DNA of 64,000 nt from Bacteroidota bacterium (GTDB lineage Bacteria > Bacteroidota > Bacteroidia > Palsa-965), in NCBI GenBank assembly GCA_016194975.1, contig JACQAM010000014.1, positions 1 through 64,000 of the forward strand, given 5' to 3'. Made by a program: the position numbers and the translations under genes. How positions within the stretch are numbered: the first letter of the stretch is position 1; every line of letters begins with the position of its first letter. Shown here piece by piece: positions 40,432 to 58,440 of the stretch. The notes beneath the pieces are model-generated. The model was not told the DNA's origin, made no database searches, and saw only the letters and a list, made by a program, of their open reading frames with translations.

Positions 40432-41937
40432 TTGAAATTCTGGAGATCCATATTTTTTTCCGGGAGATTTTTTCTCGTGTGCGGGTTACTCGCGCTGCTG
40501 TGCGTGCTTGCGTATCTCGTGCCCGAGTACAAGGAGAATGCCTTTATCATTTGTATTATTTCTTCCATTGCCGGCGGCGCAGTTTTTATTCTGATGTTCG
40601 TTCTCCGCGTTACAAAATTAGTCCGCTTCAATTATGCGACGGTAGCTTTGCCTTTGCTAATTGGCGCCGGCATTGGTATTTCATTTTATTTCAGCGATGC
40701 ACTTTACCCGATCGCAAAAATTTCTGCTTACGCATTACCCGCAGTTGTTGTCGCTGATTTTCTTTTATTGTGGAGCAGGCCGAAAGGAATTTTTGCAAGG
40801 AGGGATATGATGGATAAACTTTCGAACGGCGACCAGAATGAAATTTCCATCACTATAGAAAATAAATTTCCCTTTCCTGTTTTTATCAATGTGATCGATG
40901 AACTCCCGGTGCAGTTCCAGGCGCGCGATCTTTCGTTCAAAGGATTTCTCGGCCCGTTCGCAGCGAAAAAACTAACGTATCATGTGCGGCCCGTGCGCAG
41001 GGGAGAATACACTTTCGGTTATGTGAATGTGATCACCACTTCCATGCTCGGCCTCATGATGCGCCGTTTCCGTTTCGATAATGAGCAGATGGTTCCTGTT
41101 TATCCGTCCTTCATCCAGATGCGACGTTATGAATTACTCGCGATCTCGAATCGGTTGACAGAAGCCGGAATAAAAAAGATCCGCCGCATGGGGCAGAACA
41201 TGGAGTTCGACCAGATCAAGGAATATGTGAGTGGCGATGATCCGCGGAGAGTGAACTGGAAAGCAACTGCGCGAAGAGGAAGACTGATGGTGAATACTTA
41301 CCAGGATGAAAAATCGCAACAAGTGTATTCGGTGATAGACATGGGACGCGTGATGCAAATGCCATTCGAAGAAATGACACTGCTCGATTACGCGATCAAT
41401 GCAAGTCTCGTCATCAGCAACATCGCTATGCTGAAATATGATAAAGCGGGAATCGTTACGTTCTCGAAAAAAGTTCACACGCAATTGCCGGCAGAGCGGA
41501 GAGGATTGCAGTTGTATAAAATCATGGAACTGCTTTACGCCGCGAAGACGGGCTACCAGGAAAGTGATTTCGGAAAATTATATGCAGCCATCAAGCAACG
41601 TGTAACGCAGCGGAGTTTATTGTTGCTCTACACAAATTTCGAAACGCTGTCGAGTATGCAGCGGCAACTTTTATATTTCCGGCGGCTTGCGAAAGATCAT
41701 CTGGTCGTCGTGATATTTTTCGAGAATACAGAGTTACGTTCTTTCCTGAATAAAAAACCACGAACCATCCAGGAAATTTATTACCAGACCATCGCGGAAA
41801 AATTTGCTTACGAGAAAAAATTAATTGTGAAAGAATTAGAGAAGTACGGAATTCACGCAGTGTACACGGCTCCGCAGAATTTAACGGTGAACACGATCAA
41901 TAAATATCTTGAGTTGAAAGCGAGAGGATTGATCTGA
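40432..41937 (+). CDS. DUF58 domain protein
   Basis: The 501-residue protein starts at TTG directly after the moxR stop. It has two pairs of transmembrane helices in the first ~110 residues and the DUF58 signature (EFDQIKEYVSGDDPRRVNWK) near residue 265, followed by a VWA-like fold (VYSVIDMGRVMQMP). It is the usual partner of MoxR. Its last 185 bp, together with the downstream spacer, are duplicated at 43442-43712, so an identical-looking but orphan 3' fragment exists 1.7 kb away. Confidence 0.9.
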   Translation: MKFWRSIFFSGRFFLVCGLLALLCVLAYLVPEYKENAFIICIISSIAGGAVFILMFVLRVTKLVRFNYATVALPLLIGAGIGISFYFSDALYPIAKISAYALPAVVVADFLLLWSRPKGIFARRDMMDKLSNGDQNEISITIENKFPFPVFINVIDELPVQFQARDLSFKGFLGPFAAKKLTYHVRPVRRGEYTFGYVNVITTSMLGLMMRRFRFDNEQMVPVYPSFIQMRRYELLAISNRLTEAGIKKIRRMGQNMEFDQIKEYVSGDDPRRVNWKATARRGRLMVNTYQDEKSQQVYSVIDMGRVMQMPFEEMTLLDYAINASLVISNIAMLKYDKAGIVTFSKKVHTQLPAERRGLQLYKIMELLYAAKTGYQESDFGKLYAAIKQRVTQRSLLLLYTNFETLSSMQRQLLYFRRLAKDHLVVVIFFENTELRSFLNKKPRTIQEIYYQTIAEKFAYEKKLIVKELEKYGIHAVYTAPQNLTVNTINKYLELKARGLI

Positions 41938-42022
41938 GGGAGGATTACAGATATACAGATTACTAAAGAGCCCACACGCAAGATCGCTTCACTCGCGATG
42001 ACCAACGCACAATCTGTATATC
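41753..42022 (+). repeat. 270-bp direct repeat, left copy (DUF58 3' end plus spacer)
   Basis: It matches 43442-43712 with three substitutions and one 1-bp indel as I align them (about 98.5% identity). It covers the last 61 codons of the DUF58 gene and an 85-bp spacer. The spacer forms nested hairpins: CAGATATACAGATT pairs with AATCTGTATATCTG, and ATCGCTTCACTCGCGAT lies inside. The two copies enclose two genes. Confidence 0.92.
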
Positions 42023-42125
42023 TGTATTATCTGGAATTCGATGCCTGGCTGTTAAGAATTTTCGAGGAGATGGATTATCATAGTATAATTGGGTAAGTTT
42101 GAAATAGGATAATTATTTTATAAAA

Positions 42126-42539
42126 TTGGGAACAAAAGCAATTCGTTATTTTATTCCGTTATTTATTTCAGGTTACTTCCTTATCAGCATTATTACCAAT
42201 TGTTATTCTGAAATTTTCCCTTTTTCTGCTTTTAAACTTTACTCGGTCATTCCAAATAAGATGGAAGAGTATGATATACTTCTCAATCAGGGCGAAAACA
42301 ATTCTGTATTTCTTTTAGCCGGAAATGATTCGTTATCGGATACAGAAAGAAAATATTTCAGATATATTCTGAAGGAATTGGGCCAAAATCACACAAACAA
42401 TCCAATTGTTTTTCCTGAAAGCATTCAGCGAAAGGTCAAAAATTACCCGAATGCCTGGTTTGTCAAATTAACAGGCGATTACATGGCTGCGGCCTGCGAA
42501 AATAAAATTCACACGGAATTGATCTCAAAAATTAAATGA
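42126..42539 (+). CDS. small membrane-anchored protein of the repeat-flanked pair
   Basis: The 137-residue protein has a TTG start and an N-terminal transmembrane helix (IRYFIPLFISGYFLISIITN), followed by a soluble part of about 105 residues. Its stop overlaps the ATG of the next gene by 4 bp (ATGA). I do not recognise the family. It and its partner lie between the two copies of the 270-bp repeat, so they were probably acquired together. Confidence 0.6.
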   Translation: MGTKAIRYFIPLFISGYFLISIITNCYSEIFPFSAFKLYSVIPNKMEEYDILLNQGENNSVFLLAGNDSLSDTERKYFRYILKELGQNHTNNPIVFPESIQRKVKNYPNAWFVKLTGDYMAAACENKIHTELISKIK

Positions 42540-43513
42540 TTCACCGATTAATTCATTTATTTTGGGACCGGTCAATTGCTGGCGGCGATGCTATTTTCTC
42601 CACTGAAACGGAAAAGAAATTCAAACGCTCAGTGATCATCGTAAAATTATTTTACTGTGTTTTATTTTCCATATCCCTTCTTTGTTTGTCCGGCTTCTCT
42701 CCCTTTCCGAAGTGGCATACACTTCTTTCTTCGGAAGAACTATTCCTTCCATTATGGCCTGTGCGCTGGATAAATCTGGCGGAATGGTCATCCTCGGTAA
42801 ATTCTATTATGTTAGCCTTTCCATTAACTACATTTCTGGCTGTTTGTGCCGGAACCCGTTATCGGTTTATCCGCATTGCAGTATTCCTGTCTCTGTTTCT
42901 ATATCTTGCGTTGGTTAGTTCTTTCGGCAAGACAGACCATTACCTGCATTTATTCCTTCTCGCCTCTTTCTTATTTATTTTTTTGCCTGAGCGATCAAAG
43001 AAAAAAGAAATCAACCAGGTAAATTACCTTAAGATCATATGGGGGCTGCAGCTTTTCATTCTTGCCAGTTATTCTGCATCGGGACTGTTTAAAATAGCGG
43101 GCATTTTTTATCAATTGTACCAAGGGCAGGTTTCAGCTTTGTCTAACGAAGGGCTGGCGCGGGATATTGCAGCTACCGAATTTATTTCTAACCACAAATC
43201 CATTTTAGGAAGTATGCCAAAAAATTTTATTTCACCCGTTTTTACATTTTTGCTGCTGTGCTCCTATTGCATAGAACTTGTATCCGTATTTATTGCTTTC
43301 CGCCCTTCCTGGCATAGGATATGGGGAATCCTTCTTATTCTACTGCATATTTTTATTTTACTCAATATAGGCCCGGATTTTAGCTTTCAGGTTGTCTTGA
43401 TTGCACTGATTCTTGTTAACAGCCCTTTCACCCCTTCCCGGAAAAACCACGAACCATCCTGGAAATTTATTACCAGACCATCGCGGAAAAATTTGCGTAC
43501 GAGAAAAAATTAA
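42536..43513 (+). CDS. polytopic membrane protein (HTTM-like), chimeric C-terminus
   Basis: The 325-residue protein has about seven or eight hydrophobic helices (SVIIVKLFYCVLFSISLLCL, FLSLFLYLALVSSFGKTDHY, IWGILLILLHIFILLNIGPD). The layout, with HxxH-like positions near DHYLHLFLL, resembles HTTM/vitamin-K-carboxylase-like membrane proteins, but only weakly. The last ~23 residues (from about 303) are read out of frame from the duplicated DUF58 sequence, so its own C-terminus was lost or replaced when the repeat formed. It is translationally coupled to the small protein upstream. Confidence 0.6.
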   Translation: MIHRLIHLFWDRSIAGGDAIFSTETEKKFKRSVIIVKLFYCVLFSISLLCLSGFSPFPKWHTLLSSEELFLPLWPVRWINLAEWSSSVNSIMLAFPLTTFLAVCAGTRYRFIRIAVFLSLFLYLALVSSFGKTDHYLHLFLLASFLFIFLPERSKKKEINQVNYLKIIWGLQLFILASYSASGLFKIAGIFYQLYQGQVSALSNEGLARDIAATEFISNHKSILGSMPKNFISPVFTFLLLCSYCIELVSVFIAFRPSWHRIWGILLILLHIFILLNIGPDFSFQVVLIALILVNSPFTPSRKNHEPSWKFITRPSRKNLRTRKN

Positions 43514-43626
43514 TTGTAAAAGAATTAGAGAAGTACGGAATTCACGCAGTGTACACGGCTCCGCAGAATTTAACGGTGAACACGATCAATAAATATCTTG
43601 AGTTGAAAGCGAGAGGATTGATCTGA
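43442..43626 (+). pseudogene. orphan 3' fragment of the DUF58 gene
   Basis: In the DUF58 frame this segment encodes the same C-terminal ~61 residues and stop as 41753-41937. It has no start of its own and its first 72 bp are used in another frame by the HTTM-like gene. Confidence 0.88.
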
Positions 43627-43712
43627 GGGAGGATTACAGATAATACAGATTACTAAAGAGCCCACACGCAAGATCGCTTCACTCGCGATGACCAACGCAC
43701 AATCTGTATATC
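43442..43712 (+). repeat. 270-bp direct repeat, right copy
   Basis: This is the second copy of 41753-42022, offset by 1689-1690 bp. Its left end lies inside the HTTM-like gene. After 43712 the sequence departs (CCTCACATCCTGTAATCTTCC) and runs through a TTCGTATATTCGTATGTATTCG spacer into the AT-rich island. The 331-bp gap 43514-43844 holds only this copy and the spacer. Confidence 0.92.
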
Positions 43713-43844
43713 CTCACATCCTGTAATCTTCCCAATTCGTATATTCGTATGTATTCGAGTACATCTACTTGGTGACCAATGCTGTGTGCCGTTGGTAACT
43801 TTCCCTTCCTAACGAATCCCTAACGCCTATATGGGAATAGTGCA

Positions 43845-44570
43845 TTAGGACTTTTCTGATTTTTCCTTTAGTTTCCTTTGATTAGACAATTGTTCGTATA
43901 ATTCCTTTATAGATTCAAATTTTTCCTGTTCTTTTTGTCGCCCTTTATATGCTACTACTATTTCGGAAAATTCCGAACCCCATAAATCAAAACCGTACCG
44001 AGTTCCACAATCTGTTCTCGATTTGGGAACAGGGCAAAAACAATTCCAAATAAATCCGTTTAATTCTTCCCAAGAAATAAATTTAGATTCATTATGCGAT
44101 GTATTTCTTTCAACGGAAAAAATAATTGGTCTAATAGTAACTATCCCAAAAGAAACTTTGATTGGACAACTTTTAAAATTATTCTCCTTTTTATTTGGTT
44201 TGAGAAGCTTAACCATCTCTTCTGAAATCTGTTTTATTGAATTCTTTTCAAATAAACCAATCCAGTTTAGAATTTTTTCCCAAGACTCTGGAATTAATAA
44301 ACTGTCATTGAAATGAAGTTGCTGCCCTTTACTCTTAACTTCAGAAACCACAATATCAATATTATTTGGTACTTCAAGATAAGGCGAAGAGTTGTGTTCG
44401 GTTTCATCTTGAGAATGAAGGGGAAATCGGACAGCGAGTATGTCTACTTCTCCAATTTCCTTACCGTCTTGATTTGAATGAAGCACAAACCCCGAAGTAA
44501 AATATCCATTCAATCTCAAATAGAGTTTGGATAGATTTTCCTGAATGATAGATTCTTCTTTTCTCGTCAT
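43845..44570 (-). CDS. PD-(D/E)XK nuclease-like hypothetical protein
   Basis: The 241-residue protein has an early segment GKEIGEVDILAVRFP (residues 36-50) and, about 25 residues later, NIDIVVSEVKSKGQQL. The spacing and chemistry (E..D ... EVK) match the catalytic core of PD-(D/E)XK nucleases, as in Mrr-like and VSR-like restriction enzymes. No DNA-binding domain is recognised, and the C-terminus is a charged coiled-coil-like helix. It lies at the left end of the island and diverges from a tyrosine recombinase gene. Nuclease activity is inference from the motif. Confidence 0.6.
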   Translation of the reverse strand: MTRKEESIIQENLSKLYLRLNGYFTSGFVLHSNQDGKEIGEVDILAVRFPLHSQDETEHNSSPYLEVPNNIDIVVSEVKSKGQQLHFNDSLLIPESWEKILNWIGLFEKNSIKQISEEMVKLLKPNKKENNFKSCPIKVSFGIVTIRPIIFSVERNTSHNESKFISWEELNGFIWNCFCPVPKSRTDCGTRYGFDLWGSEFSEIVVAYKGRQKEQEKFESIKELYEQLSNQRKLKEKSEKS

Positions 44571-44579
44571 TAGTTAACG

Positions 44580-44592
44580 CTTGTTCAACAAG
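44580..44592. promoter_or_regulatory. CTTGTT-C-AACAAG palindrome between divergent genes
   Basis: A 13-bp perfect inverted repeat lies 10 bp upstream of the PD-(D/E)XK gene start and is flanked by GTTA and TAAC. It could be an operator shared by the divergent nuclease-like and recombinase genes. Confidence 0.35.
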
Positions 44593-44712
44593 ATAACAAA
44601 ACGCAGATAGAAATGTTATCACAAAGCAGTGAATCTTCCCAAAAATTGATTGATACCCCACCTTTTCAAGTCGCCTGATGTACACTTTTGTCCTTACCAA
44701 CATATAAAAACT

Positions 44713-45651
44713 ATGAAAACAATCCACGAAGCAATTAAAGCATTTTTATTCCATTGCCATTACGAAAAAAAACTTAGCTCTAAAACTATGAAAGCATACG
44801 AGCTTGACTGCAAACAATTTTTGAACTTTCTCAATCAAGAAAAACTTGCGAAAGAATTAACCTTAATTGACAAGCACTCTATTAAATCGTATTTACATCA
44901 TTTGAAAGATGTGAAGCCAAAGACTCTTCGCCGAAAAGTTGCAACGCTGAAAACAATGTTCAACTTTCTGGAATTCGAAGACGAGATCTTGATTAATCCA
45001 TTCAGAAAGATGAGAATTCAAATAAAGGAACCAAAAATGCTTCCTAAAGTAATGACTTTAGTAGAAGTAAAAAAAATTCTTAGTCACGCACAAAGCGAAG
45101 TTGGGAGTGAAGAGTATAACATTCGTTCTGTCCGTTATAAAGAGCGAGCCCGCAATCAGGCAATTCTTGAATTAATGTTTGCTACTGGCATGCGTGTTTC
45201 AGAAGTGTGTTGTCTTCGACCTGAAGATGTTGATTTGAAATCTGGACAGATAAGAATCATGGGAAAAGGTAGTCGTCAACGTATCATTCAGATTTGTCAT
45301 GAAGCCGTGCTTCATTCTTTAAGCAAATATGAAACTATGTTTTTCAAACAAGCCAGAAAAAAGGGATGTTTTTTTCTCAATCGACGAAAATCAAAACTCT
45401 CAGAGCAATCGATTAGGATTATGATTTCTAAATATTCGAAGAAAGCTGGCGTAGAAAAACATATCACGCCTCACACATTTCGACATTCATTCGCAACGCT
45501 ACTTCTTGAACAAGATGTTGACATTAAATACATTCAACAATTTCTGGGGCATAGTTCTATTAATACAACGCAGATATACACTCACGTAAATGCAAATAAA
45601 CAGAAAGAAATATTAAGCGTTAAGCACCCGAGATTATTAATTGCATTGTGA
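44713..45651 (+). CDS. tyrosine recombinase/integrase (XerC/D-like)
   Basis: The 312-residue protein starts at the ATG giving MKTIHEAIKAFLFHCHYEKK. It has an N-terminal SAM-like core-binding domain (residues 1-90) and the catalytic domain with the R-K-H-R-H-Y set: ATGMRVSEVCCLRPEDVDL, KGSRQR, TPHTFRHSFATLLLE, FLGHSSINTTQIYTHV. It has no arm-binding domain and no IntI-type insertion. It is a likely integrase of the island, or part of a smaller element nested in it. The downstream gene frame opens only 9 bp after the stop. Confidence 0.92.
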   Translation: MKTIHEAIKAFLFHCHYEKKLSSKTMKAYELDCKQFLNFLNQEKLAKELTLIDKHSIKSYLHHLKDVKPKTLRRKVATLKTMFNFLEFEDEILINPFRKMRIQIKEPKMLPKVMTLVEVKKILSHAQSEVGSEEYNIRSVRYKERARNQAILELMFATGMRVSEVCCLRPEDVDLKSGQIRIMGKGSRQRIIQICHEAVLHSLSKYETMFFKQARKKGCFFLNRRKSKLSEQSIRIMISKYSKKAGVEKHITPHTFRHSFATLLLEQDVDIKYIQQFLGHSSINTTQIYTHVNANKQKEILSVKHPRLLIAL

Positions 45652-45725
45652 ATGGTTAATGCAGGATAACTAAATATTATCTCTTTGAGAAAGATGATTA
45701 TTCGGAATTAAATCAACGTTTATTC

Positions 45726-46814
45726 TTGCCACTAAGAGAAAGTGGAGAAATGTCTGCTGATCCATCTGGATGGCTTGACACATATTCCTGTGTAAGTGAG
45801 GATAAATCTTTTCCACAAGAAATTCAGAAGTACTACTCTGATTTTTACAGTCAACTGCATCACATTAAAAGAGATATTATACCTCTGCTTTCTTCTTGGG
45901 AAAAAAGAGAATTACAACCTGAAAATTTAACCCTTTGCCACTCCGCTACAGTCGGATCAGCTATTGCACTTGCATTTTTGATAGCTAAAGGAATAAAAAC
46001 TATTATTCTAGAGGCCCCCTTCTATTTTGCCACTTTCTATCAGGCTGAAACGTTTGGCTTTAAGATCATTCGGGTGCCATCGTTCCTTGATCAGCAATTC
46101 AAACTATTTATAGATCCGGATTTAATCAAGAAAAATTCTCCGTGTGCTGTTTTTCTTACCCAACCCCGAACTGCACTAGGGATTAATCAAGAAGTCAAAG
46201 ATCTTCTTGCTTTGTCACACGTATTGGGGGAACAAAACTATTTGATTATTGATGAAGCGACCGAACAATTCTTTCCTAGCACATTAAGTGATTTCAATTT
46301 TGCCGAATATCCTAACGTGATAAAAATAAGGAGCATTTTTAAGGGTCTTGGAATTAATGGAGTGCGTTTGGCATGTCTTATACACCACGAAAAATATAGA
46401 GATCAGATCGCTGAAGAAATGGAGGTCATGCAAGGGGCTTTGGATTATTATAGTCTAATGTTAGCGGCGGAAATGGGCAAAGACGTAAACAGATTTTCGG
46501 CGCTTCTTCGTGCAGCAAATAATCAGGTTTTGAAACTTCGCAGTAAAGTAGACTTGCAGCTGAAAGGAACAAGCTGTTCTGTATCTCCGATCGTCAACGG
46601 GTATATTGGATCTGCAGTAATTAAGTTGCGCTCGGAATTACAGAGAGGTGAATTTTTAGAATATTGTGCCCGATCCAGAATGCCAGTAATTGTTGGATCA
46701 AGTATGGGGTTTGCGAGACATAAAGGATTTGAATTTGTTCGTCTCAATTATTTTAACCGGGAACATCATCTGTTAAAGGGGCTTGAAATAATGAGTTCAT
46801 TCGAAAGTCTCTGA
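45726..46814 (+). CDS. PLP-dependent aminotransferase-like protein (fold type I)
   Basis: The 362-residue frame has the features of class I/II aminotransferases: LCHSATVGSAIALAF (cofactor phosphate region), YLIIDEATEQFF with the PLP-pyridine aspartate, SIFKGLGINGVRLAC with the Schiff-base lysine, and a C-terminal arginine in FVRLNYFNREHH. The start is uncertain: TTG at 45726 and ATG at 45750 are possible, yet coding-like sequence (KYYLFEKDDYSELNQRLFL) continues upstream to a stop at 45657 with no ATG, so the 5' end may have been cut by the recombinase insertion. The substrate is unknown. It converges with the pentapeptide gene, with 5 bp between. Confidence 0.7.
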   Translation: MPLRESGEMSADPSGWLDTYSCVSEDKSFPQEIQKYYSDFYSQLHHIKRDIIPLLSSWEKRELQPENLTLCHSATVGSAIALAFLIAKGIKTIILEAPFYFATFYQAETFGFKIIRVPSFLDQQFKLFIDPDLIKKNSPCAVFLTQPRTALGINQEVKDLLALSHVLGEQNYLIIDEATEQFFPSTLSDFNFAEYPNVIKIRSIFKGLGINGVRLACLIHHEKYRDQIAEEMEVMQGALDYYSLMLAAEMGKDVNRFSALLRAANNQVLKLRSKVDLQLKGTSCSVSPIVNGYIGSAVIKLRSELQRGEFLEYCARSRMPVIVGSSMGFARHKGFEFVRLNYFNREHHLLKGLEIMSSFESL

Positions 46815-46819
46815 ATTTC

Positions 46820-48289
46820 CTAAGACTTTGGTTCAAAATTTATCCAGCCTTTGAGTGTTTTCATTAGTTGCTTATAGCGGGGTAAACTGAATTGTACGAC
46901 TAAAGACAATTCGTGATGGCCAGGCAATAAAGTTTTAAGGCGAAAACTAAGAGCTTCTGACTTATTTAAGCCAGTATTTTCGATCTTAAACATCTGATTA
47001 TCTCTAAGAATATTATTTTCCTTACTTCTGATTTTTCTCGTTTGCACATCTAATTTATTAAGCTCCACTTTGAATTTCGTTGTAAAAATGAACAAGATAT
47101 AAGGCCATGCATCCTTTATTTTTTCCCAGTGTAAATACAGTTCATTTGGTGAATTGTGTTTTACAATCTTTCCAAAAGTTACGGGCGCTATGTCAAGTAA
47201 TGGTCTGAGTTTTTCATAGTAATACTCTTTTTCAAGTGGTCCCTCGACAAGAATCCGGCAATAACCTGCTTCCTCATAATCCAGAAGCAAATCCTCAGCG
47301 GCATCCAAATACTTTTCCAGAATTCGCTCAAGCGAAAGAAAAACCCCATCTGATGTTCTTTGCAAGTCGATAAATTCGGGTTTGCTTGCAAAGGCATCCG
47401 ATAATTTTGCGCTCACCTCAAACAATTGAGCTAAGGTTCTCAGTCGAACCTTGTCCTGATCAAATTGATAAAGAAGAAATTCGTGAAGCCTTTCGATGTG
47501 TAGTCTAAATCGGTTGGGGTTTTTACTCAAACCAATCCAATCATTTACAACGAATAGGCTTTCCACTTCATCACTGGGTTCCGAGATTATCGAAGGTTTG
47601 AGAAAGTAAGCCAACCTGAATTCTTCAATTCTGTTTGACGTATTTTGGAATTTGGATAACTCGCTTGTGAACTCGGTCAAATTGATTTTTTTGTCGCCTC
47701 TCTGCCTGAACACGAAAGTGCAGTTGTCGCACCTTGAAGCTTCAATACCAAAATTTCCTGTAATAGTTTCATATTCTAATCTGGAATAGCTAAAGCTACA
47801 GTCAAGTAGAATGCTTGACTCTATCATTTTATTTGAGGTTGTACATTTCGCAAACGAACAGTTGAAAAATCTGCAATCGGAAATGATCACGTTCGTGAAA
47901 TCACATTCCTGAAATGTGCAGTCTCTAAAATCTGACAGGGTTATTGCAGTCTGATTAAAAGTACATTTTGAGAAGTGGCTATTGCTTAAAAGGTTGTTGT
48001 TGTGTGAGGCATGATTCAGATTGCAATTTTGAAACGTTGATCGATTAATGTGACAATCCTTTAAGTCGACATTATAAAAACTTACAGACTTGGCATTAAG
48101 GTTTTCAATACGGGATGATATAAGGTTGGTGTGATTTAAGCGATGCTTACGCGACATGTTACCTGTAATCGAACAGTTGGATACATTTTTCGCATTAAAC
48201 ATCACTCCGGGAATTTCTGTAAAGTTCAGTGTTACTCCATTAGGATATTCCACGAGATTTTTCCATTCTTTAGTAAGCCCCTTTTTCAT
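46820..48289 (-). CDS. pentapeptide-repeat protein with unknown C-terminal domain
   Basis: The 489-residue protein starts at the ATG that overlaps the upstream gene stop by 4 bp. Residues ~30-190 are pentapeptide-type repeats of the A(D/N)LXX or CXFXX kind (for example NCSITGNMS, DCHINRSTFQNCNLNHASH, FRDCTFQECDFTNVIISDCR), which fold as a right-handed quadrilateral beta-helix. The remaining ~300 residues are mostly helical and unrecognised (LLDYEEAGYCRILVEG). Pentapeptide proteins can mimic DNA or act as effectors. It is the last gene of a three-gene minus-strand operon. Confidence 0.75.
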   Translation of the reverse strand: MKKGLTKEWKNLVEYPNGVTLNFTEIPGVMFNAKNVSNCSITGNMSRKHRLNHTNLISSRIENLNAKSVSFYNVDLKDCHINRSTFQNCNLNHASHNNNLLSNSHFSKCTFNQTAITLSDFRDCTFQECDFTNVIISDCRFFNCSFAKCTTSNKMIESSILLDCSFSYSRLEYETITGNFGIEASRCDNCTFVFRQRGDKKINLTEFTSELSKFQNTSNRIEEFRLAYFLKPSIISEPSDEVESLFVVNDWIGLSKNPNRFRLHIERLHEFLLYQFDQDKVRLRTLAQLFEVSAKLSDAFASKPEFIDLQRTSDGVFLSLERILEKYLDAAEDLLLDYEEAGYCRILVEGPLEKEYYYEKLRPLLDIAPVTFGKIVKHNSPNELYLHWEKIKDAWPYILFIFTTKFKVELNKLDVQTRKIRSKENNILRDNQMFKIENTGLNKSEALSFRLKTLLPGHHELSLVVQFSLPRYKQLMKTLKGWINFEPKS

Positions 48290-48708
48290 TTTGATTCGAT
48301 TAAGATTATTCCGCCGCAAACTAACAGTACACCAATAAAAAATCTCAGGTCAAACTTCTCATGATTGAAGAATATGCCTAGAAGCACAAGAACTATTAAG
48401 TAAGAAGATTCATATACTCCTGCGTACGCAACTCCTTTTTTCACTGTTAAAAAATACCATATACATACGTATACAACATTCAGAACGAGATATGGAATAA
48501 CGTATGATTCGAAACAAGCAGATTTGAATTTTGACGTTGCGGAAATTGAACCTTCCCAGAAGTAAGCAATAGCGGTTATTATTACATAGCAAATCAGATT
48601 CAGTGCCGAGGTAACAAACAGACTTTGATATTTCTGTGTATAAAGGGAATACCAGAAGGTTATTAACGCTGTTGTCAGCGTAAACATAAGCGGTATGGCT
48701 ATCCTCAT
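48286..48708 (-). CDS. half-size EamA/SMR-like membrane transporter
   Basis: The 140-residue protein has five or so transmembrane helices (IPLMFTLTTALITFWYSLYT, NLICYVIITAIAYFW, VLNVVYVCIWYFLTV, SSYLIVLVLLGIFF, FIGVLLVCGGIILI) in the pattern of the drug/metabolite transporter superfamily, half the size of classical EamA proteins. It could export a small molecule as a dimer. It starts 16 bp after the 421-residue gene and overlaps the pentapeptide gene by 4 bp, so the three are co-translated. Confidence 0.7.
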   Translation of the reverse strand: MRIAIPLMFTLTTALITFWYSLYTQKYQSLFVTSALNLICYVIITAIAYFWEGSISATSKFKSACFESYVIPYLVLNVVYVCIWYFLTVKKGVAYAGVYESSYLIVLVLLGIFFNHEKFDLRFFIGVLLVCGGIILIESK

Positions 48709-48724
48709 CTCAGATAATATTTAG

Positions 48725-49990
48725 TTATCGCTCAATAAAGCGAAAGATAGCATTCTTATCCGTTTCACCATTTTTGTATTTCCGACGGTATGATTGCCTG
48801 CCACCTTTATTAATTCCAGTTATAATTTCTTCGATTTGATTATAGTGTTCGTCAGCCTCACCCAAATATTCGGGAATACTCCAAACATAAGTCGCGTGCG
48901 TTTCCAAAAGTTCCCAAATAAAATGATTGTAACCTCCGCAACTAATCAGGAAAACAAAACCAAAACTCGGTTTGAGCGTAAATCGAAGTTTGATTTCTTC
49001 GGAATGATAATTAGAAAGCAATTGCAATTGTTCACGGCTTCGCACGGCGGTTTTTTGCATCAGGATATTAAGAAGTTGAGCGTCCGTTTGCGCGAAAACA
49101 TTTCCTTTTTCTTCGAAAGACAATGCTGAGAATACATCATCTGCCGTATATAATGACTTATCAACTAATTGTGGGGCGGCTTTAACAAGTTCCAAAGTGC
49201 GATATTCTTTTATCTTTTCGATCAAAGCAGGATTGATTGCTTGAATTTCGGGAGAAGTTGCTTCAACTGAAATAACATCACCACTTTCCACTTTTATAAT
49301 TGCTTGAACCTCTATTCGTTTCACGCCAAGTTTGCGAGAAAACCAGTTTTTAACGGTATCATATTCTTTTCTGATGTATTCGTTATCAATTCGAAATTCA
49401 ACAACAGAATAAACTTCTTTTATTCTATGTTGAAACGAAACATACCCGTCATGAAAAATGACATGAGAAAATGGAACGGAAAAATTTACATTAATGTTTT
49501 GTTGAAAAGGGGATTCGGATATAATCGCAGGATGGTTAATATCCACTGTACCAAAAACGTTTTTCGATTCATGACTAACCGGGAAAAGATGTTGATGCGG
49601 ATTTATTTGTTTCCCAAAAGCTGTTCCAAATCCTGGTTCGACTTTGCCTTTGGATTTGGGCGCAGTATTTTTGGCGATGCTCGCAAAAGCTATCGTTTGA
49701 TAGCTTGTTAGTAAAGGTTCCAATAAATTCCAATCTAGTCCCTCAAATATGAGCCGATCAATATTTAATTCATTTTGCTGGCTTTCGAACCGCGTATGAT
49801 CTTCAAAGGAATAACTTTTCACTTCAACATAAAACGGACCGTCTACACCTAATAAATTTACAAGCCACATTATTGTTCGGTTTTCACGAAAAGCAAATAC
49901 CCGTTTGGGAAGATTGGTTTTAGAATATGGAATCATAATTTCCTTATTCAGGAAAATACCCCTGTTAGTCATTTTGAACACATGCTCCAT
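48725..49990 (-). CDS. hypothetical protein, first gene of minus-strand operon
   Basis: From the ATG at 49990 the protein is 421 residues; a TTG at 50035 would add 15. It has no signal peptide or transmembrane helix. Visible parts are an N-terminal segment (PKRVFAFRENRTIMWLVNLL), a glycine-poor middle region, and a C-terminal half (SREQLQLLSNYHSEEIKLRF, GFVFLISCGGYNHFIWELLE) ending in a basic tail. I do not recognise the family. The operon with a transporter and a pentapeptide protein suggests synthesis or sensing of something exported, but that is a guess. Confidence 0.55.
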   Translation of the reverse strand: MEHVFKMTNRGIFLNKEIMIPYSKTNLPKRVFAFRENRTIMWLVNLLGVDGPFYVEVKSYSFEDHTRFESQQNELNIDRLIFEGLDWNLLEPLLTSYQTIAFASIAKNTAPKSKGKVEPGFGTAFGKQINPHQHLFPVSHESKNVFGTVDINHPAIISESPFQQNINVNFSVPFSHVIFHDGYVSFQHRIKEVYSVVEFRIDNEYIRKEYDTVKNWFSRKLGVKRIEVQAIIKVESGDVISVEATSPEIQAINPALIEKIKEYRTLELVKAAPQLVDKSLYTADDVFSALSFEEKGNVFAQTDAQLLNILMQKTAVRSREQLQLLSNYHSEEIKLRFTLKPSFGFVFLISCGGYNHFIWELLETHATYVWSIPEYLGEADEHYNQIEEIITGINKGGRQSYRRKYKNGETDKNAIFRFIER

Positions 49991-50082
49991 GGAAAGGAAG
50001 AAGGTAGTTAATTGGGTTAAATAACGCAAGTGCAAATTAGCTGTTTTACCAAATGATTGATGGTAATTTAAATTTTTAATTT

Positions 50083-50095
50083 ATATACAGTATAT
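50083..50095. promoter_or_regulatory. ATATAC-A-GTATAT palindrome between divergent operons
   Basis: A 13-bp perfect palindrome lies in the 174-bp region between the unknown minus-strand operon and thyA. It is a candidate operator; TATATTCG at 50137-50144, 20 bp before the thyA ATG, resembles a -7 element with one mismatch. Confidence 0.35.
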
Positions 50096-50164
50096 GTTTT
50101 TCTTTACAAGAATATCACAAAAGGGGTTCTATACCTTATATTCGTTGGTTATATTGCCGATTAT

Positions 50165-50959
50165 ATGAACCAATACGAAACCCTGCTCCGAAATGTCCTT
50201 GAAAACGGGGTTAAAAAAGCTGATAGAACGGGCACGGGTACCTTAAGTACTTTCGGAAATCAAATACGGTTTGATCTCGAGGAGGGGTTTCCTTTAATTA
50301 CTACGAAAAAACTTCATTTCAAATCTATTGCATATGAACTCCTTTGGTTTCTTCGGGGAGATACCAATATCAAATTCTTGCATGATAATAGCATAAGTAT
50401 TTGGGACGAGTGGATGCAACCGGGAGGAGAACTTGGTCCTGTATATGGTTACCAATGGCGCTCTTGGCCTGCACCCGACGGAAGACACATTGACCAACTT
50501 AGTGGTGTTATCGAAAGCATTAAAAAAAATCCAGACTCCCGCCGATTACTCATAAGTGCATGGAATGTTGCTGATATCGAAAAGATGGCCTTACCTCCAT
50601 GTCATGTACTGTTTCAGTTTTATGTAGCTGATGGACGACTTTCTTGCATGATGTATCAACGAAGTGCGGATATGTTCTTAGGTGTTCCATTCAATATTGC
50701 TTCTTATGCATTGTTGACTATGATGGTTGCTCATGTGACAGGATACAAGCCCGGTGAATTTGTTCACGCTTTGGCGGATACTCATATTTATCTTAATCAC
50801 CTCGATCAGGTAAAAGAGCAGTTGGCTCGCGAGCCTCGTCCATATCCAACATTGAAACTAAATCCTGAAATAAAATCGGTTTTTGATTTCAAATATGAAG
50901 ATTTGCAACTAGAAGGATATAACGCTCACCCATCAATTAAAGCCCCTATAGCTATATAG
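50165..50959 (+). CDS. thyA: thymidylate synthase ThyA
   Basis: The 264-residue protein is the same length as E. coli ThyA and keeps its numbering: catalytic C146 in [11 protein letters not shown]80 in WDEW, and N177 in [11 protein letters not shown]. The asparagine selects dUMP, whereas dCMP hydroxymethylases carry aspartate there, so a true thymidylate synthase (dUMP to dTMP with methylene-THF) is expected. Residue-level integrity suggests that it is active. It is unusual in opening a five-gene operon that continues with a DNA methylase 8 bp downstream, within an AT-rich island. It could supply dTMP or replace a chromosomal gene. Confidence 0.95.
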
Positions 50960-50967
50960 CTCGATTT

Positions 50968-51813
50968 ATGTCAGAACCCCAAGTCATAGAAGATATACTT
51001 CAAACAAAAGCTATCCCATTCCTGAGATGGACAGGATCAAAAAAATGGCTTGTATCAAGCTGTATAGATGATTTTTTACCCGTGAATTACAATAATTATC
51101 ATGAACCTTTTCTCGGTGGAGGAGCCATGTTTTTCCATTTAAATCCTTCTAAGGAAGTATATCTATACGATTTAAATGACGAATTGATCAATGTATATTC
51201 TCAATTAAGAGATAACATAGAAAATGTAATCAAACATCTGAGAACATTTGCAAATACGAAGGACGAATACTATAGAATTCGAAGTATGAAATGTCGTGCA
51301 GATCACGCAAGAGCCGCGCGATTTATTTATTTAAATCGAACTTCTTTCAACGGCATTTATCGTGTTAACCCACAAGGGAATTACAATGTTCCTTATGGCA
51401 AAAGGACTAATGTGGATATTGTAACGGAGGAAAATTTGCATCGGGTCAATTCAATTTTGCAAGGTGTAAATATTAAGCAAGGAGAATTTAGTAAGGCTTT
51501 GAATAATATTCGAGCTAATGATTTAGTTTATTTAGATCCTCCGTATACTGTTGCTCATGAAAATAATGGGTTCATAGAATATAACAGCAAATTATTTTCA
51601 TGGAAAGATCAAGAGAAGCTTGCCAATATGATAAAAGAAATTGATCGTAGAGGAGCCTATTTCATTTTATCAAATGCAGCACACTTTTCAATTAGAAAAT
51701 TATATCAAGGAGTTGGTAAGATAAAGTCTGTGAGTCGCTATAGTAAAGTTGGTGGAAGAAATAAAACAAGAGGTGTTTTTAATGAATTAATTATTACTAA
51801 CGTTAAGAAGTAG
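50968..51813 (+). CDS. DNA adenine N6-methylase, Dam/D12 class
   Basis: The 281-residue protein has the alpha-class adenine methylase motifs in order: FLRWTGSKKWL (residues 19-29), SAM motif EPFLGGGAMFFHL (46-58), and the catalytic DPPY at residues 190-193. The target-recognition region lies between them (RTSFNGIYRVNPQGNYN). It transfers a methyl group to adenine N6, with GATC the typical Dam target, though the site cannot be read from the sequence. No cognate restriction endonuclease is recognisable beside it. Spacing of 8 bp from thyA and 2 bp to the next gene implies one transcript. Confidence 0.9.
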   Translation: MSEPQVIEDILQTKAIPFLRWTGSKKWLVSSCIDDFLPVNYNNYHEPFLGGGAMFFHLNPSKEVYLYDLNDELINVYSQLRDNIENVIKHLRTFANTKDEYYRIRSMKCRADHARAARFIYLNRTSFNGIYRVNPQGNYNVPYGKRTNVDIVTEENLHRVNSILQGVNIKQGEFSKALNNIRANDLVYLDPPYTVAHENNGFIEYNSKLFSWKDQEKLANMIKEIDRRGAYFILSNAAHFSIRKLYQGVGKIKSVSRYSKVGGRNKTRGVFNELIITNVKK

Positions 51814-51815
51814 CT

Positions 51816-53018
51816 TTGGAAACTCAGGAAAAAATATCGGTAATTAATATTGCAGTCATGAGTGATTTGCATTGCTACCATCCTAAAGATGACAAGTGGC
51901 CTATTGATTCATATTTGACTTCAAATAAATTAAGATCCCCATCGAAAGATCATCCGATTCAAGCATTACTTGAAATACTTCCATCGATAGTAGATTCGAA
52001 AATTGATTATTTGTTATGTCCGGGAGATGTTGCAAACAGAGCCGATCAGCAAGGTTTTATTGATGGCTGGGGGTTCGTTTTAGAAATTGGGCAAGCACTA
52101 AAAGTTGATGAAATAATTTCCACGTTAGGTAATCATGATGTTGACTCCAGACATATTGGCTCTACTGATATATATACAATAGCAAAAGGAATAAAAAAGG
52201 GATTTCCGATTAATGAAGTTAGTCTATGCAATGAATTTTGGGCTAATGGTTTCACTTTTGTGGAAAAAGAGAATGTACGTATTCTTGTTATCAATTCCGT
52301 ATTTTTTCATCACACTCAAAGTGAAATAGATAAAGGCAAAGTTGATCCCACACAACTAGAGGCAATTGAAAAATATTTGTCAAACCTAAATGATGATAAA
52401 TTGAAATTAGCACTTTGTCATCATCACCCACTGCCACATGAAAGATTCAAATTGGGTTCAGGCGACGTGATAGTTGGCGGGAATGAGTTAATCGATTTAC
52501 TGAACAAGTATAAATTTGATTTACTTATACACGGACATAAGCATGATCCTTGGTTAAGGTATGCTCCTGGCAGTGGAAGTTCTGTTCCGATTTTTTCGGC
52601 AGGAAGCTTTTCAGCAACAACAAACCAAATATTAAATGGTAAACGAAATACTTTTCATCTGGTCACCCTTACAAAGACAGAAAATGCGTCTTACGGAAAA
52701 ATAAAAACGTGGGAATACTTACCAAACATAGGTTGGAAACTTGCTGATTCAGGTGATGATGGTTTCCCCGTACACTCCGGATTTGGATTTAAGGGTAAAA
52801 TAGTCGATTTGATAAATGATACGGATAGGGTAATTACAAAGGATTTTATGGATTGGGAAAAATTCATTAAAGAAGTACCAGAAGTTGAGTTCTTGACGCC
52901 AGACGAGTGTATTGAATTTCGAAATAGTCTTGAGATTCGATTTAATATAATTACTCATCCTCCGTTACCTAATCGACCAAAAATTATTGGTAAACCATAT
53001 AATCCATCGCAGCCGTGA
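51816..53018 (+). CDS. calcineurin-like metallophosphoesterase
   Basis: The 400-residue protein starts at TTG 2 bp after the methylase stop. All five metallophosphoesterase motifs are present: SDLH (D17, H19), GD (70-71), GNHD (105-108), the HHH cluster near 202-204, and GHKH (240-243). A further ~150 residues extend past the catalytic domain (TKTENASYGKIKTWEYL onward). Substrates of this superfamily range from nucleotides and cyclic nucleotides to DNA ends. It overlaps the next gene by 4 bp (GTGA), so it is tightly linked with the ATPase. Confidence 0.9.
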   Translation: METQEKISVINIAVMSDLHCYHPKDDKWPIDSYLTSNKLRSPSKDHPIQALLEILPSIVDSKIDYLLCPGDVANRADQQGFIDGWGFVLEIGQALKVDEIISTLGNHDVDSRHIGSTDIYTIAKGIKKGFPINEVSLCNEFWANGFTFVEKENVRILVINSVFFHHTQSEIDKGKVDPTQLEAIEKYLSNLNDDKLKLALCHHHPLPHERFKLGSGDVIVGGNELIDLLNKYKFDLLIHGHKHDPWLRYAPGSGSSVPIFSAGSFSATTNQILNGKRNTFHLVTLTKTENASYGKIKTWEYLPNIGWKLADSGDDGFPVHSGFGFKGKIVDLINDTDRVITKDFMDWEKFIKEVPEVEFLTPDECIEFRNSLEIRFNIITHPPLPNRPKIIGKPYNPSQP

Positions 53019-54880
53019 CAAATATTGAAAGTTTTCATATTTCATATAATGCACGACATCTTAAACCAGAAGATGTTGCACAAACTTTTATTTCAAATTC
53101 TGATTATAAAGAGTTGGTTCAGGATAATCATACAGTATTATTAGGAGCGCGCGGTTGTGGGAAAACAACCTTAATGAAAATGTTAACGTTGCCAGCATTA
53201 TACTCATGGAAGGACGAATTAGCAGAAGAATTCAGGCAAAAAATTAGTTTCTATGCTGTTTATATTTCTACAGACATTTATTGGAATGCGCAAAAAGATT
53301 CTTACAATGAACAATTGAAAAGCATGCCTAAATATGCTTTGGCTGTTTCGAAAGTTGCGGTAACTACCAACGTATTATATGCCTTATGTGAAACATTTGA
53401 AAATATTTTAAAATATAAAATTGAAAACAATGATATATCACAAGAAATTGAGTTGTCAAAAACTTTGATTGAAGGCTGGTCATTGCCTCCTACAATACCA
53501 AACATTGCAATGGTTAAAGAGTCTTTATTAAGGCGGGCAGATTTATTAAATAGACATATACAAAAGACAATATTTAATTGTGTCGATGATAGTGAAGTAA
53601 AATTAGAAAATGATTTTTTCTTTATTGATTATGACCCTGTTATTATAAATGCTATTTCAGCTTTTGAAAGAATATATAAAATAACTAATAATCCTAGGTG
53701 GGCCCTGTGTTTTGATGAATTAGAATTAGCCCCAATTTGGTTACAGGATCGATTATTTAATTCATTAAGGAGCCGAACTCAAAAGATTTTATACAAATTA
53801 AGTGCTAGTCCCATCTTGTCTATTTCTGACAATATCTCTGCGTCTCCGAATAACGATTTGAAATTGGTAAAAATGTGGCCACATGGCAAGAGAGATAAAT
53901 ATCAAGAATTTAGTGAAGCTATTCTGAAATCGCTTTTGTTCAAAAAATTCAATAGAGATATTGAACCTGAATTGATTTTCGGCTCCAATCCATTGTTTAG
54001 AAAAGATCATGAAAAAAAAGATTATGAAGAAGGAGGAGAAACATGGAAGCAAATTATTGACCTTGCTAAGGATGATCCTGATTTGAGAAAACTTCTCCAA
54101 GGACATCATATTAATCCTAAAAACCCCCAAGTCGGAGTTGAAAATAGGAGGAAACTAGACACTGTTTTACGTAAAATAAAACCCATTGTTTATTTCAGGA
54201 ATTATTATAGCACTTATGACATAAAATCTAAAAATAGAAAAGCTCGCTCTCGCAAAGCTTCAACTTTATTTTACGGCAAGGAAGTAATTTATAGGATATG
54301 CGACGGTAATCCGAGATGGTTGATTGGGATAGTAGAGGCTATACTTACAAAATGCAACAATAATAGAATTCAAAAAATTAGTGACGCTTCACAAGCAATG
54401 GTTCTAAAAAATATAGCTGATCAATTTTATAATGTTATAAAAACTATTCCAGGCGCAGTTTTTCAAACAAAACATAAAATGTATACTCTGTCAGGAATAT
54501 TAAAAGAAGTTGGAGATACATTTTTTAATGAAATTGTCATCGACAAATTTCAACGTGATCCGCATAGCACTTTTACTATCGACAAGGGTTTAAATCCTAG
54601 TATCATAAAAATTTTGGAAAAAGGAGCTTATCAAGGTGCAATTATCTTGATCGACCCTGCTGAAAACAGTTTTGATTTTGAGATGCGTGGTAAACGATTT
54701 AGACTTTCTTATTTATTATCTCCTTTATTTAAAATTCCTTTAAGGAAGTATGCTGCAATTCCGCTCAGCAAATGTTTGACAGGGAAAGAAATTATTATGA
54801 GCCCTCAAAAAACCGTAACAGGTACTCGAAAATCTGTACTAACCAATCAAACTGAATTACCATTTAATTTTAAAAAATAA
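53015..54880 (+). CDS. P-loop ATPase (ORC/CDC6-like AAA), unknown role
   Basis: The 621-residue protein starts at a GTG overlapping the phosphoesterase stop. The Walker A is GARGCGKTT (residues 44-52) and a Walker B-like CFDELELAP lies near residue 234. The opening (YNARHLKPEDVAQTFISNSD) and spacing recall bacterial ATPases annotated as ORC-CDC6-like, which occur in defence islands. The C-terminal ~270 residues are helical and basic, with no named domain (IRKARSRKASTLF-like basic patch near residue 410). It may act as the sensor or motor of the operon. Confidence 0.75.
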   Translation: MTNIESFHISYNARHLKPEDVAQTFISNSDYKELVQDNHTVLLGARGCGKTTLMKMLTLPALYSWKDELAEEFRQKISFYAVYISTDIYWNAQKDSYNEQLKSMPKYALAVSKVAVTTNVLYALCETFENILKYKIENNDISQEIELSKTLIEGWSLPPTIPNIAMVKESLLRRADLLNRHIQKTIFNCVDDSEVKLENDFFFIDYDPVIINAISAFERIYKITNNPRWALCFDELELAPIWLQDRLFNSLRSRTQKILYKLSASPILSISDNISASPNNDLKLVKMWPHGKRDKYQEFSEAILKSLLFKKFNRDIEPELIFGSNPLFRKDHEKKDYEEGGETWKQIIDLAKDDPDLRKLLQGHHINPKNPQVGVENRRKLDTVLRKIKPIVYFRNYYSTYDIKSKNRKARSRKASTLFYGKEVIYRICDGNPRWLIGIVEAILTKCNNNRIQKISDASQAMVLKNIADQFYNVIKTIPGAVFQTKHKMYTLSGILKEVGDTFFNEIVIDKFQRDPHSTFTIDKGLNPSIIKILEKGAYQGAIILIDPAENSFDFEMRGKRFRLSYLLSPLFKIPLRKYAAIPLSKCLTGKEIIMSPQKTVTGTRKSVLTNQTELPFNFKK

Positions 54881-54886
54881 TTTATA

Positions 54887-55876
54887 ATGAAACTTAAATA
54901 TGCGAATCAAATAAAGTTAAATGAACTAAGTGCTTCAAATTATGATGTTATTATTGTTGCATCAGGGTATGAAACTCGAGCAACTAGTCTTGCTCAAAAA
55001 TTAGAGGAACAAAATTCAAAACGTATAGTAATTGCTTTTGAAGAATGGCAGGATCATGAACAAAGAATAAAGAATGATGCCATTTTTAAAAGTCTGGGGT
55101 ATCTTCCTTATCCTGCTAAAGAAGGTAGCTGTGAATCTATTATTACAATTCTAAATGATGTTTTTCAAGATTTTTTATTCAAACAAGATGTTAGTGTTTT
55201 AATTGATTACTCGTGCATGACTAAGGTTTGGTATGCCACGATTATTAATTATTTTATTAACAAAGATTCCATCATTAGAAATCTTGACCTCACCTTTAGT
55301 TATACCCCTTCAAAATATTCTGATCCGCAACCGCCCATGCCGAACAAATATATGGGACCGATTCCAGGAATATATTGTGTATCCACTTCTAATAAACCCA
55401 CAGCTCTTATTATTGGATTAGGATATGAAATGGAAAGAGCACAGGGAATAGTCGAGTATCTTGACCCTAAAACAACTTATGCATTCTACTCAAATCCAGC
55501 TTTTGATAAAAAATTTGTTAGCGTAGTAGAAAAGAACAATGCCCAACTGCTCTCGTCTTTAGGTAAGGAAAATGTTTTTAAGCATCCGATAGGTGATTTG
55601 AAATCGACAGATGCACAATTAACATCTTTATGTTTGAGCCTTAAAAGCACTCATCGAATAATTTTGGCTCCTTTGGGACCGAAACCTTTTGCATTATTGT
55701 GCTTGTTGTTGTCGGCTCGTTATCCTGAAATTGACGTTTGGCGTGTTAGTGCAGGCGATTCAGGAAATAAGTATGATAGAAAACCCGCTAACACAGAACC
55801 TGTTATTTGCAGGATTGTTTTTGAAAGAGAATTAATTGCTACTGAAGAAAAACGTGAAGTAAGTATGACTTCATGA
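54887..55876 (+). CDS. two-lobed alpha/beta protein of unknown function
   Basis: The 329-residue protein has two Rossmann-like halves. The first opens NYDVIIVASGYETRATSLAQ and includes VSVLIDYSCMTKVWYATIIN; the second opens PTALIIGLGYEMERAQGIVE and includes HRIILAPLGPKPFALLCLLL and WRVSAGDSGNKYDRK. It has no signal peptide or membrane helix. The internal repetition of a glycine-containing strand-loop followed by YE-R suggests a duplicated ligand-binding fold, possibly like CARF or other nucleotide sensors, but I cannot place it. It ends the five-gene operon, 6 bp after the ATPase stop. Confidence 0.65.
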   Translation: MKLKYANQIKLNELSASNYDVIIVASGYETRATSLAQKLEEQNSKRIVIAFEEWQDHEQRIKNDAIFKSLGYLPYPAKEGSCESIITILNDVFQDFLFKQDVSVLIDYSCMTKVWYATIINYFINKDSIIRNLDLTFSYTPSKYSDPQPPMPNKYMGPIPGIYCVSTSNKPTALIIGLGYEMERAQGIVEYLDPKTTYAFYSNPAFDKKFVSVVEKNNAQLLSSLGKENVFKHPIGDLKSTDAQLTSLCLSLKSTHRIILAPLGPKPFALLCLLLSARYPEIDVWRVSAGDSGNKYDRKPANTEPVICRIVFERELIATEEKREVSMTS

Positions 55877-55919
55877 TTGCATCACGTAGTAGAGATTAGT
55901 AAATATTACCGAGAAGAAC

Positions 55920-56651
55920 TTAAGCATTCTTTTTTTTCGACGAATCCAATTCATTCAACATCTCGGAGAAAATGGGATTTGTTGTTGAAATAACTGTACA
56001 ACCATCCTTTTCTTTCATTTCAAATTTTGGTTCCCATCTCTCACAATATTCTTTCCATAATTTCAAAAAATATTCCTCCTCAACGAGATTTATTTCAAAC
56101 AAGAAAAACATATTTGAATCTCCCATCATTTCCGCAAACGCCAATAAATTTCCTTCAGGACTAACACCGTAAACAAGAGGACATTCGTCATATTCTTGTT
56201 TTGAATGTATATCATATACCTCAGTCAATATTTCTGGATCATACTTCAATAGTTCTTCGTAAGAAAGAGGCTCTTCATATTTTGCGGAATATTTGCTTAA
56301 CTCTGAAAATAAAAGGTTTGTAATTCCCCGACTATGATTATTGAGTCTTGTTTGCAAATCATTGGTAATGTGTACGGCTTCTTTAATTGCCCGGCTCATG
56401 TTTTCATTTTCTTTTCTCAATTGGTCATCCAGTGCCGAGCCTTCAATATATTTTTGGTAATTGATAATATAATCTGGCGTGACACAGAGAATCTCAGAAA
56501 TCTTAAATAATTGCTCGACAGTAATATGTGTTTCCCCACGTTCTTGCTTGCCATAAGTAGACGGTTCTATGCATAATTTTTCTGCCATTTGTTTTTTTGT
56601 CATTCCAATTCGCTCGCGAATGGCTCTAATGTTTAGATAAAACTGTGTCAT
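55920..56651 (-). CDS. Xre-family helix-turn-helix regulator
   Basis: The 243-residue protein starts at the ATG giving MTQFYLNIRAIRERIGMTKK. An HTH_3 domain fills residues 5-65 (MTKKQMAEKLCIEPSTYGKQERGETHI ending in a YIINYQ-type close). The C-terminal ~170 residues are acidic and helical, with no known fold (SYEELLKYDPEILTEV). It likely represses its own promoter: an inverted repeat TTTTGACA/TGTCAAAA flanks the -10 region upstream. It converges with the five-gene operon and diverges from the SIR2-like gene, so it could control either. Confidence 0.85.
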   Translation of the reverse strand: MTQFYLNIRAIRERIGMTKKQMAEKLCIEPSTYGKQERGETHITVEQLFKISEILCVTPDYIINYQKYIEGSALDDQLRKENENMSRAIKEAVHITNDLQTRLNNHSRGITNLLFSELSKYSAKYEEPLSYEELLKYDPEILTEVYDIHSKQEYDECPLVYGVSPEGNLLAFAEMMGDSNMFFLFEINLVEEEYFLKLWKEYCERWEPKFEMKEKDGCTVISTTNPIFSEMLNELDSSKKKNA

Positions 56652-56660
56652 GGTATTAGC

Positions 56661-56710
56661 TTTTGACAAAAATCGAACATTATATAATGCGAGAAAAGTC
56701 CCTGTCAAAA
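56661..56710 (-). promoter_or_regulatory. sigma70-consensus promoter with flanking operator half-sites
   Basis: On the minus strand TTGACA (56708-56703) and TATAAT (56684-56679) are both perfect, with 18-bp spacing; the TATAAT lies in the palindrome ATTATATAAT. TTTTGACA at 56661-56668 and TGTCAAAA at 56703-56710 are exact inverted copies, one overlapping the -35 and the other near the start site, as expected for an autoregulatory operator. Confidence 0.6.
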
Positions 56711-56864
56711 TATTCTATTTTCGAGTATTTCTCAAGTGTTAATAATAATATTATTGGGATTCTCAAGGTCAAGTGTGGTAAAAATATTCTGTTTTCTGCT
56801 TTTGTTTGCTTTTAGTTTCGTTTCAAAACTTTTCTTTTCTTCTGTTTGCATGTGCTTGTGCTGC

Positions 56865-56934
56865 TGAAGTACCCGCGAAGTCTCGCGAACTAGGCATGAA
56901 GTCTGGCGAAGCCTCTGTGAAGTACCCGCGAAGT
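56865..56934. repeat. two 17-bp direct repeats TGAAGTACCCGCGAAGT
   Basis: Exact copies lie at 56865-56881 and 56918-56934. Between and after them shorter words recur (GCGAA, TGAAGT, TTTGAAGTCCC, TTTGAAGATC). This is the most GC-rich spot in the 586-bp gap 56652-57237 between the Xre and SIR2-like genes. Iteron-like or regulator-binding roles are both possible. Confidence 0.6.
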
Positions 56935-56982
56935 AAAATCCAAGTGTAATCCAACCCTCTTTGAAGTCCCTTTGAAGATCAA

Positions 56983-57132
56983 ATGCAACCAAAAGAAAAA
57001 ATCAATTTTTTGCAAAAATTACGGGCTCGACTAAAAGATAGTTTAGAAGAAGAGAATACGGTTAAAAGTATGACACTTTGCGACACTCCCGAAACATCAA
57101 AGTGTATTAATTATTCAAAAACAGACCATTAA
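56983..57132 (+). CDS. possible small protein, 49 residues
   Basis: An ATG frame encodes QPKEKINFLQKLRARLKDSL followed by an acidic/polar C-terminal part, ending in TDH. The first 25 residues form a basic amphipathic helix. It sits in the gap ahead of the SIR2-like gene on the same strand. No family is recognised, and it may be chance. Confidence 0.3.
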   Translation: MQPKEKINFLQKLRARLKDSLEEENTVKSMTLCDTPETSKCINYSKTDH

Positions 57133-57237
57133 GACTTAGACTTTTTTAAGGCATTTTGATTTGATATATTAGAAGAGTAGAAAATTGGAAAAAAAATTTG
57201 CTTGGGGTTGGAGTTTTTCATTTAAATAAGTTTAACA

Positions 57238-58278: not shown

Positions 58279-58406
58279 TCGCAATTCTGATAGTATTTGT
58301 TATGGTACGTTTCAATACTTTAATCAAACCCATTCAATCCATCAGCGTGACTCCTGATACATTTTCTATTTCCTCTCTGAGAAATTAACACGGAAATAGA
58401 ACACAT

Positions 58407-58440
58407 ATTACGAGGAATGCAAAATCGCGCTCCTCGTAAT
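58407..58440. terminator. hairpin between SIR2-like gene and integrase
   Basis: ATTACGAGGA and TCCTCGTAAT form a perfect 10-bp stem around a 14-base loop, between two convergent genes (58278 and 58459). It can act in both directions, though U-tracts are weak. Confidence 0.6.

Follow-up and report, generated by a model that had tools for sequence, protein, structure and literature searches.

Integrative elements that use the 3′ end of a gene as their attB leave that gene intact, with a displaced 3′ end on the far side of the element. A duplicated gene end beside inserted DNA is also known from recombination experiments in E. coli. Working with a linearised plasmid, Amarir-Bouhram et al. (2011) obtained a PCR product indicative of a duplication in 56 of 60 analysed recombinants (PMC3240628). 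In 14 sequenced recombinants the duplications measured 109–950 bp, and were explained by circularisation followed by a single crossover (PMC3240628). The product of homology-facilitated illegitimate recombination (HFIR) is similar and includes an orphaned 3′ end, as has been argued for the T6SS effector loci of V. cholerae (PMC5361080); HFIR usually deletes recipient DNA (PMC3240628).

Here, we describe a locus with a duplicated gene end in a window of 64,000 nucleotides (the whole stretch of DNA that was analysed) from a Bacteroidota bacterium. As in the E. coli recombinants, the locus homologous to one end of the inserted DNA is directly duplicated beside it, without transposase or integrase. 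The E. coli scars were seen after engineered conjugation, whereas the event considered here is inferred from one natural genome. The locus also resembles HFIR and the displacement model for T6SS loci, in that homology at one end would anchor the fragment and a displaced 3′ gene end lies behind the newcomer. Unlike in HFIR, no deletion is visible, and the remnant duplicates the end of a gene that is intact. An intact DUF58 gene with a displaced 3′ end on the far side is likewise reminiscent of the integrative elements that target gene 3′ ends, but the insert has no integrase and the arrangement does not recur at DUF58. The features of the locus are listed in Table 1.

Table 1. Positions of the DUF58 locus, the insert and the neighbouring island in the window.
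Feature	Position	Strand	Remarks
DUF58 gene, intact, 501 aa	40432..41937	+	Pfam DUF58, E 1.1e-17
Repeat copy A	41753..42022	+	Last 185 nt of DUF58 and most of the dispersed palindromic repeat
Member of the dispersed intergenic palindromic repeat family at copy A	41938..42045		Imperfect hairpin; right arm runs beyond the end of the 270-nt repeat
Unique insert, 1,419 bp	42023..43441		G+C 0.377 (flanking core genes, about 0.45)
Gene 1, protein of 137 aa, single transmembrane segment at the N-terminus	42126..42539	+	No family match
Gene 2, polytopic membrane protein of 325 aa, HTTM-like motifs	42536..43513	+	Last 23 residues read from copy B
Repeat copy B	43442..43712	+	DUF58 3′ end without its gene, and palindromic repeat with right arm to about 43731
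Left boundary candidate, 14-mer TTCGTATATTCGTA	43736..43749	+	Exact copy at island end
Low-GC genomic island with two tyrosine recombinases	43750..59995		ORF G+C 0.32–0.41; separate from the insert
Right boundary candidate, 14-mer TTCGTATATTCGTA	59996..60009	+	Exact copy at island end

The duplicated DUF58 end and the palindromic repeat

The original prediction, made from the sequence of the window, had described a 270-bp direct repeat with about 98.5% identity, and the repeat was found at the position given. Copy A (270 nt) and copy B (271 nt) are identical in 267 of 271 columns (98.5%). They differ at A41771/T43460, T41808/G43497 and G41829/A43518, and by a 1-nt insertion at 43642, which leaves identical runs of 18, 36, 20, 123 and 70 nt, the longest being 123 nt. 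The match has an E value of 2e-134 (BLAST within the window), which excludes chance. The first 185 nt of the repeat correspond to the final 61 codons of the DUF58 ORF (40432-41937), in line with the prediction. The remaining 85 nt, however, which had been taken for spacer, are part of a dispersed intergenic palindromic repeat rather than ordinary spacer.

In the genome itself (4.1 Mb, 28 contigs), the DUF58 part of the repeat has only two full matches, and the palindromic part has about 40 partial matches. A search of the window and the genome for a third copy of the 270-nt repeat, at the distal end of the neighbouring island, found none. Copy B is a headless DUF58 remnant; the rest of the gene is missing.

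Copy B is derived relative to copy A at all three differences that could be polarised by relatives or by the hairpin partner. Gln is replaced by Leu at a position where the relatives read carry Q, E or K, GTG is replaced by GTA, and the hairpin arm has ATAAT instead of ATAT. Such derived states would fit relaxed selection on copy B, with the reservation that only three sites are informative and that one of these was polarised by hairpin pairing. They also imply that there has been some time for drift. The high identity is thus at most suggestive of a recent event, as had been claimed, since 98.5% may reflect the divergence between donor and recipient and copy B has already drifted somewhat. 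Homologous recombination between the copies would be able to excise the gene pair cleanly. Contrary to the original prediction, it would not restore DUF58: because the gene is already whole, excision would only remove the copy B remnant.

The inspected members of the palindromic family are about 110 nt long and have ends like GGGAAGATTACAG...CTGTAATCTTCCC. The right arm of the element at copy A is shared with C9:125022-125075 (96% over 54 nt). Long hairpins were predicted for both copy A and copy B, and no Rfam family matched across 39–61 kb. The 270-nt identity ends within the right arm of the palindromic element. Past this point copy A continues with TGTATTATCTGGAATTC and copy B with CTCACATCCTGTAATCTTCCC, each of which resembles the arms of family members elsewhere in the genome. 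The copies thus share the end of DUF58 and almost all of the palindromic element, followed by unrelated DNA. Separately, a very strong hairpin was noted at 39280-39411, between two genes upstream of DUF58. Its 57-nt arms show 79% complementarity, its DNA fold z-score is −9.6, and its ends are similar to the dispersed palindromic repeats.

The insert and its two genes

Between the copies the original prediction had placed 1.4 kb with two overlapping genes, which agrees with the 1,419 bp found and with the 4-nt overlap (ATGA) of gene 1 and gene 2. G+C contents were 0.43–0.49 in the core genes examined to the left of the insert. The junction of gene 2 with copy B lies at DUF58 codon 441 and gene 2 residue 303. 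Within the insert there is no transposase or integrase domain, and no inverted-repeat pair was found at its ends. Hence, lacking both a transposase and terminal inverted repeats, it does not qualify as a transposon or IS. The absence of a transposase noted in the prediction holds for the insert itself, but leaves out the adjoining island with its two tyrosine recombinase genes.

Neither gene had a Pfam or NCBIfam match above cut-off. Relatives of gene 2 were not found in samples of 59, 395 and 396 genomes, nor among plasmids, phages and viral contigs. Relatives of gene 1 were not found in a sample of 197 genomes, and relatives of neither gene were found among genome contigs. The genome samples covered relatives, the class and the phylum. 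Searching other genomes for the two genes, as had been proposed, hence yielded nothing usable in any of these collections. There is no second copy of gene 2 in its own genome. The weak matches of gene 1 and gene 2 that were inspected proved to be chance. The single-sequence structure prediction for gene 2 was poor (pLDDT 49.5).

Gene 2 was compared with the HTTM family (PF05090), using ten short HTTM-family proteins from genomes of the same class. It can be aligned in register with the motifs LQ..ilY..s.l.K..G and H......G..DF of these proteins, sharing Q..Y....K..G of the former. In hhalign, gene 2 scored 21.2 against HTTM over 102 columns (E 0.04, probability 1.3%), compared with 19.0 for the best of 60 shuffles and 18.1 for the best of 13 membrane-protein controls. 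With this E value and probability, the likeness is a lead rather than family membership, and we describe gene 2 as HTTM-like, short of significance. Unlike the HTTM proteins, it lacks a significant HMM or profile score; PF05090 matched neither gene 2 nor anything in genome G000.

At 8 of the 10 short HTTM loci a smaller ORF lies directly before or overlaps the HTTM gene. The insert has the same layout of two adjoining or overlapping genes, a small one followed by one for a polytopic protein of about 300 aa. Gene 1 gave no register-consistent match to the upstream partners of the short HTTM genes. Judged by the HTTM alignment, gene 2 would be nearly complete, with the junction at residue 303 replacing only a variable tail.

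Possible origins of the arrangement

The insert and the duplicated DUF58 end are probably the scar of a one-off fragment capture by ordinary recombination, without a dedicated enzyme. The captured DNA would have come from a close relative and measured about 1.7 kb, starting at codon 441 of DUF58, including the palindromic repeat and ending with gene 2. After circularisation, it would have entered the chromosome through a single RecA crossover within the 270-bp homology. Alternatively, homologous recombination at the DUF58 end combined with illegitimate joining at the gene 2 end would give the same product. The resulting order would be whole DUF58, copy A, insert, copy B and the old right flank.

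Capture is supported by the finding that exactly the common end is directly duplicated, with non-homologous DNA between the copies. The duplication stands on both sides of the insert, and the insert carries neither recombinase nor transposase, as in a single-crossover scar. Furthermore, both fragment ends appear to lie at arbitrary points of DUF58 and gene 2, which we count in favour of capture. Also in its favour are the second tail found in this genome alone, the derived states in copy B, and the different gene pair at this place in the nearest relative. These features are observed, as are the anatomy of the locus and the low G+C content of the insert; the donor, the circle and the crossover are inferred. 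Counting against it, the copies diverge abruptly within the palindromic repeat, possibly because of recombination between repeats in an earlier step.

Single-crossover integration or duplication-based capture, as originally proposed, is thus the best-fitting reading, with a signature that matches the E. coli recombinants (PMC3240628), although the adjacent 16-kb integrase-bearing island had been overlooked. A dedicated mobile element is not supported. The scar appears to be an ordinary product of a known process and no new kind of mobile element. It would provide a natural example of the scar described in laboratory recombinants, in which a copied gene end flanks an insert and the remnant is starting to decay. 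Because the process is known, little else is changed.

An artefact of assembly or strain mixture would have combined, in one contig, two alleles of the region to the right of DUF58, or a 1.7-kb circle with a chromosome that lacks the insert. The genome is a 28-contig assembly, and chimeras typically show adjacent copies that look like alleles. However, the longest identical run of 123 nt can be resolved with ordinary 150-nt reads, and no overlap that might lead to misjoining is present at the junction of gene 2 with copy B; for these reasons we consider a chimera unlikely. Moreover, the changes in copy B include a non-conservative one, unlike what is expected of a functional allele.

Still less likely, in our view, is integration by a tyrosine recombinase at the DUF58 3′ end, with the two genes as cargo of a small non-autonomous element that brings a replacement 3′ end. 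Gene 3′ ends are common integration targets, such an element would restore the gene as seen at DUF58, and two genes for tyrosine recombinases are present within 16 kb. The insert itself, however, has no recombinase, the nearest one lying outside copy B at 44650, and the island is bounded by a different 14-mer, TTCGTATATTCGTA, which is absent from the 270-bp repeat. In addition, the DUF58 tail was found in 114 of 295 genomes of the class, and two tails occur only in this genome. The proposed search for host-gene-end duplications in other genomes thus gave none for the DUF58 tail, which is single in all 113 other tail-bearing genomes (113/113). This implies that the DUF58 end is no recurrent attachment site.

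We assign a lower probability again to template switching or ectopic recombination, in which replication would leave at the DUF58 hairpin, copy the insert from incoming repeat-bearing DNA, return at codon 441 and recopy the 270 bp. This would agree with the right boundary of the repeat, which lies within a hairpin-forming element with many copies in the genome, and with copies that match perfectly for 70 nt and then abruptly differ, both ending in family-type arms. Against it, the genome holds no second gene 2 copy, so that the template must be incoming DNA, and the return point shows no verifiable microhomology. Finally, it is very improbable that a small cassette system uses the DUF58 3′ end and the palindromic repeat as its recombination module, with the dispersed hairpin repeats as swap sites for cargo gene pairs behind core genes and no integrase of its own.

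The DUF58 flank and the neighbouring island

A MoxR-type AAA gene (39448-40431) lies directly upstream of DUF58, and the DUF58 orthologues in genus relatives are 72–80% identical. In the nearest relative, DUF58 is followed by an unrelated gene pair and then by an SprT-like gene; in the genome studied here, the SprT-like gene stands to the right of the island. One gene of the unrelated pair may encode an MBOAT acyltransferase. As the interval from DUF58 to the SprT-like gene holds another gene pair in the relative, it is variable in the genus, which marks the flank of the conserved MoxR-DUF58 locus as a variable site. Compared with the genus orthologues of 445–452 aa, the DUF58 protein is extended near the N-terminus (40432-40690) by about 50 residues, which are apparently hydrophobic.

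In the 4.1-Mb genome, the 14-mer TTCGTATATTCGTA occurs five times without mismatch. Three of these are on this contig, including the two at the island ends (43736 and 59996), which have the same orientation. In shuffled windows at most one match was obtained, even with one mismatch allowed. The ORFs from 43845 to 59640 have a G+C content of 0.32–0.41, which returns to 0.42–0.47 beyond them. The right end holds a phage-integrase gene (58459-59640) whose product has an arm-binding domain, and near the left end there is a gene for a Xer-like recombinase (44650-45651). On these sequence features, positions 43736-60009 are likely to be an integrated island, distinct from the insert and about 16.3 kb long, with the 14-mers as putative attachment sites. 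The insert lies outside this island, which is situated immediately to the right of copy B.

Inside the island, the genes at 50968-55876 encode a D12-type adenine methyltransferase, a calcineurin-like phosphoesterase, an ORC-CDC6-like ATPase and a protein matching the PADLOC CARF6 models (E 4.5e-93). The phosphoesterase has an associated wHTH domain and partial similarity to an anti-phage phosphoesterase model. This gene cluster is possibly a defence system. Elsewhere in the window, two adjacent same-strand ORFs at 13417-17131 are paralogous, with stretches that are 70–83% identical at the DNA level.
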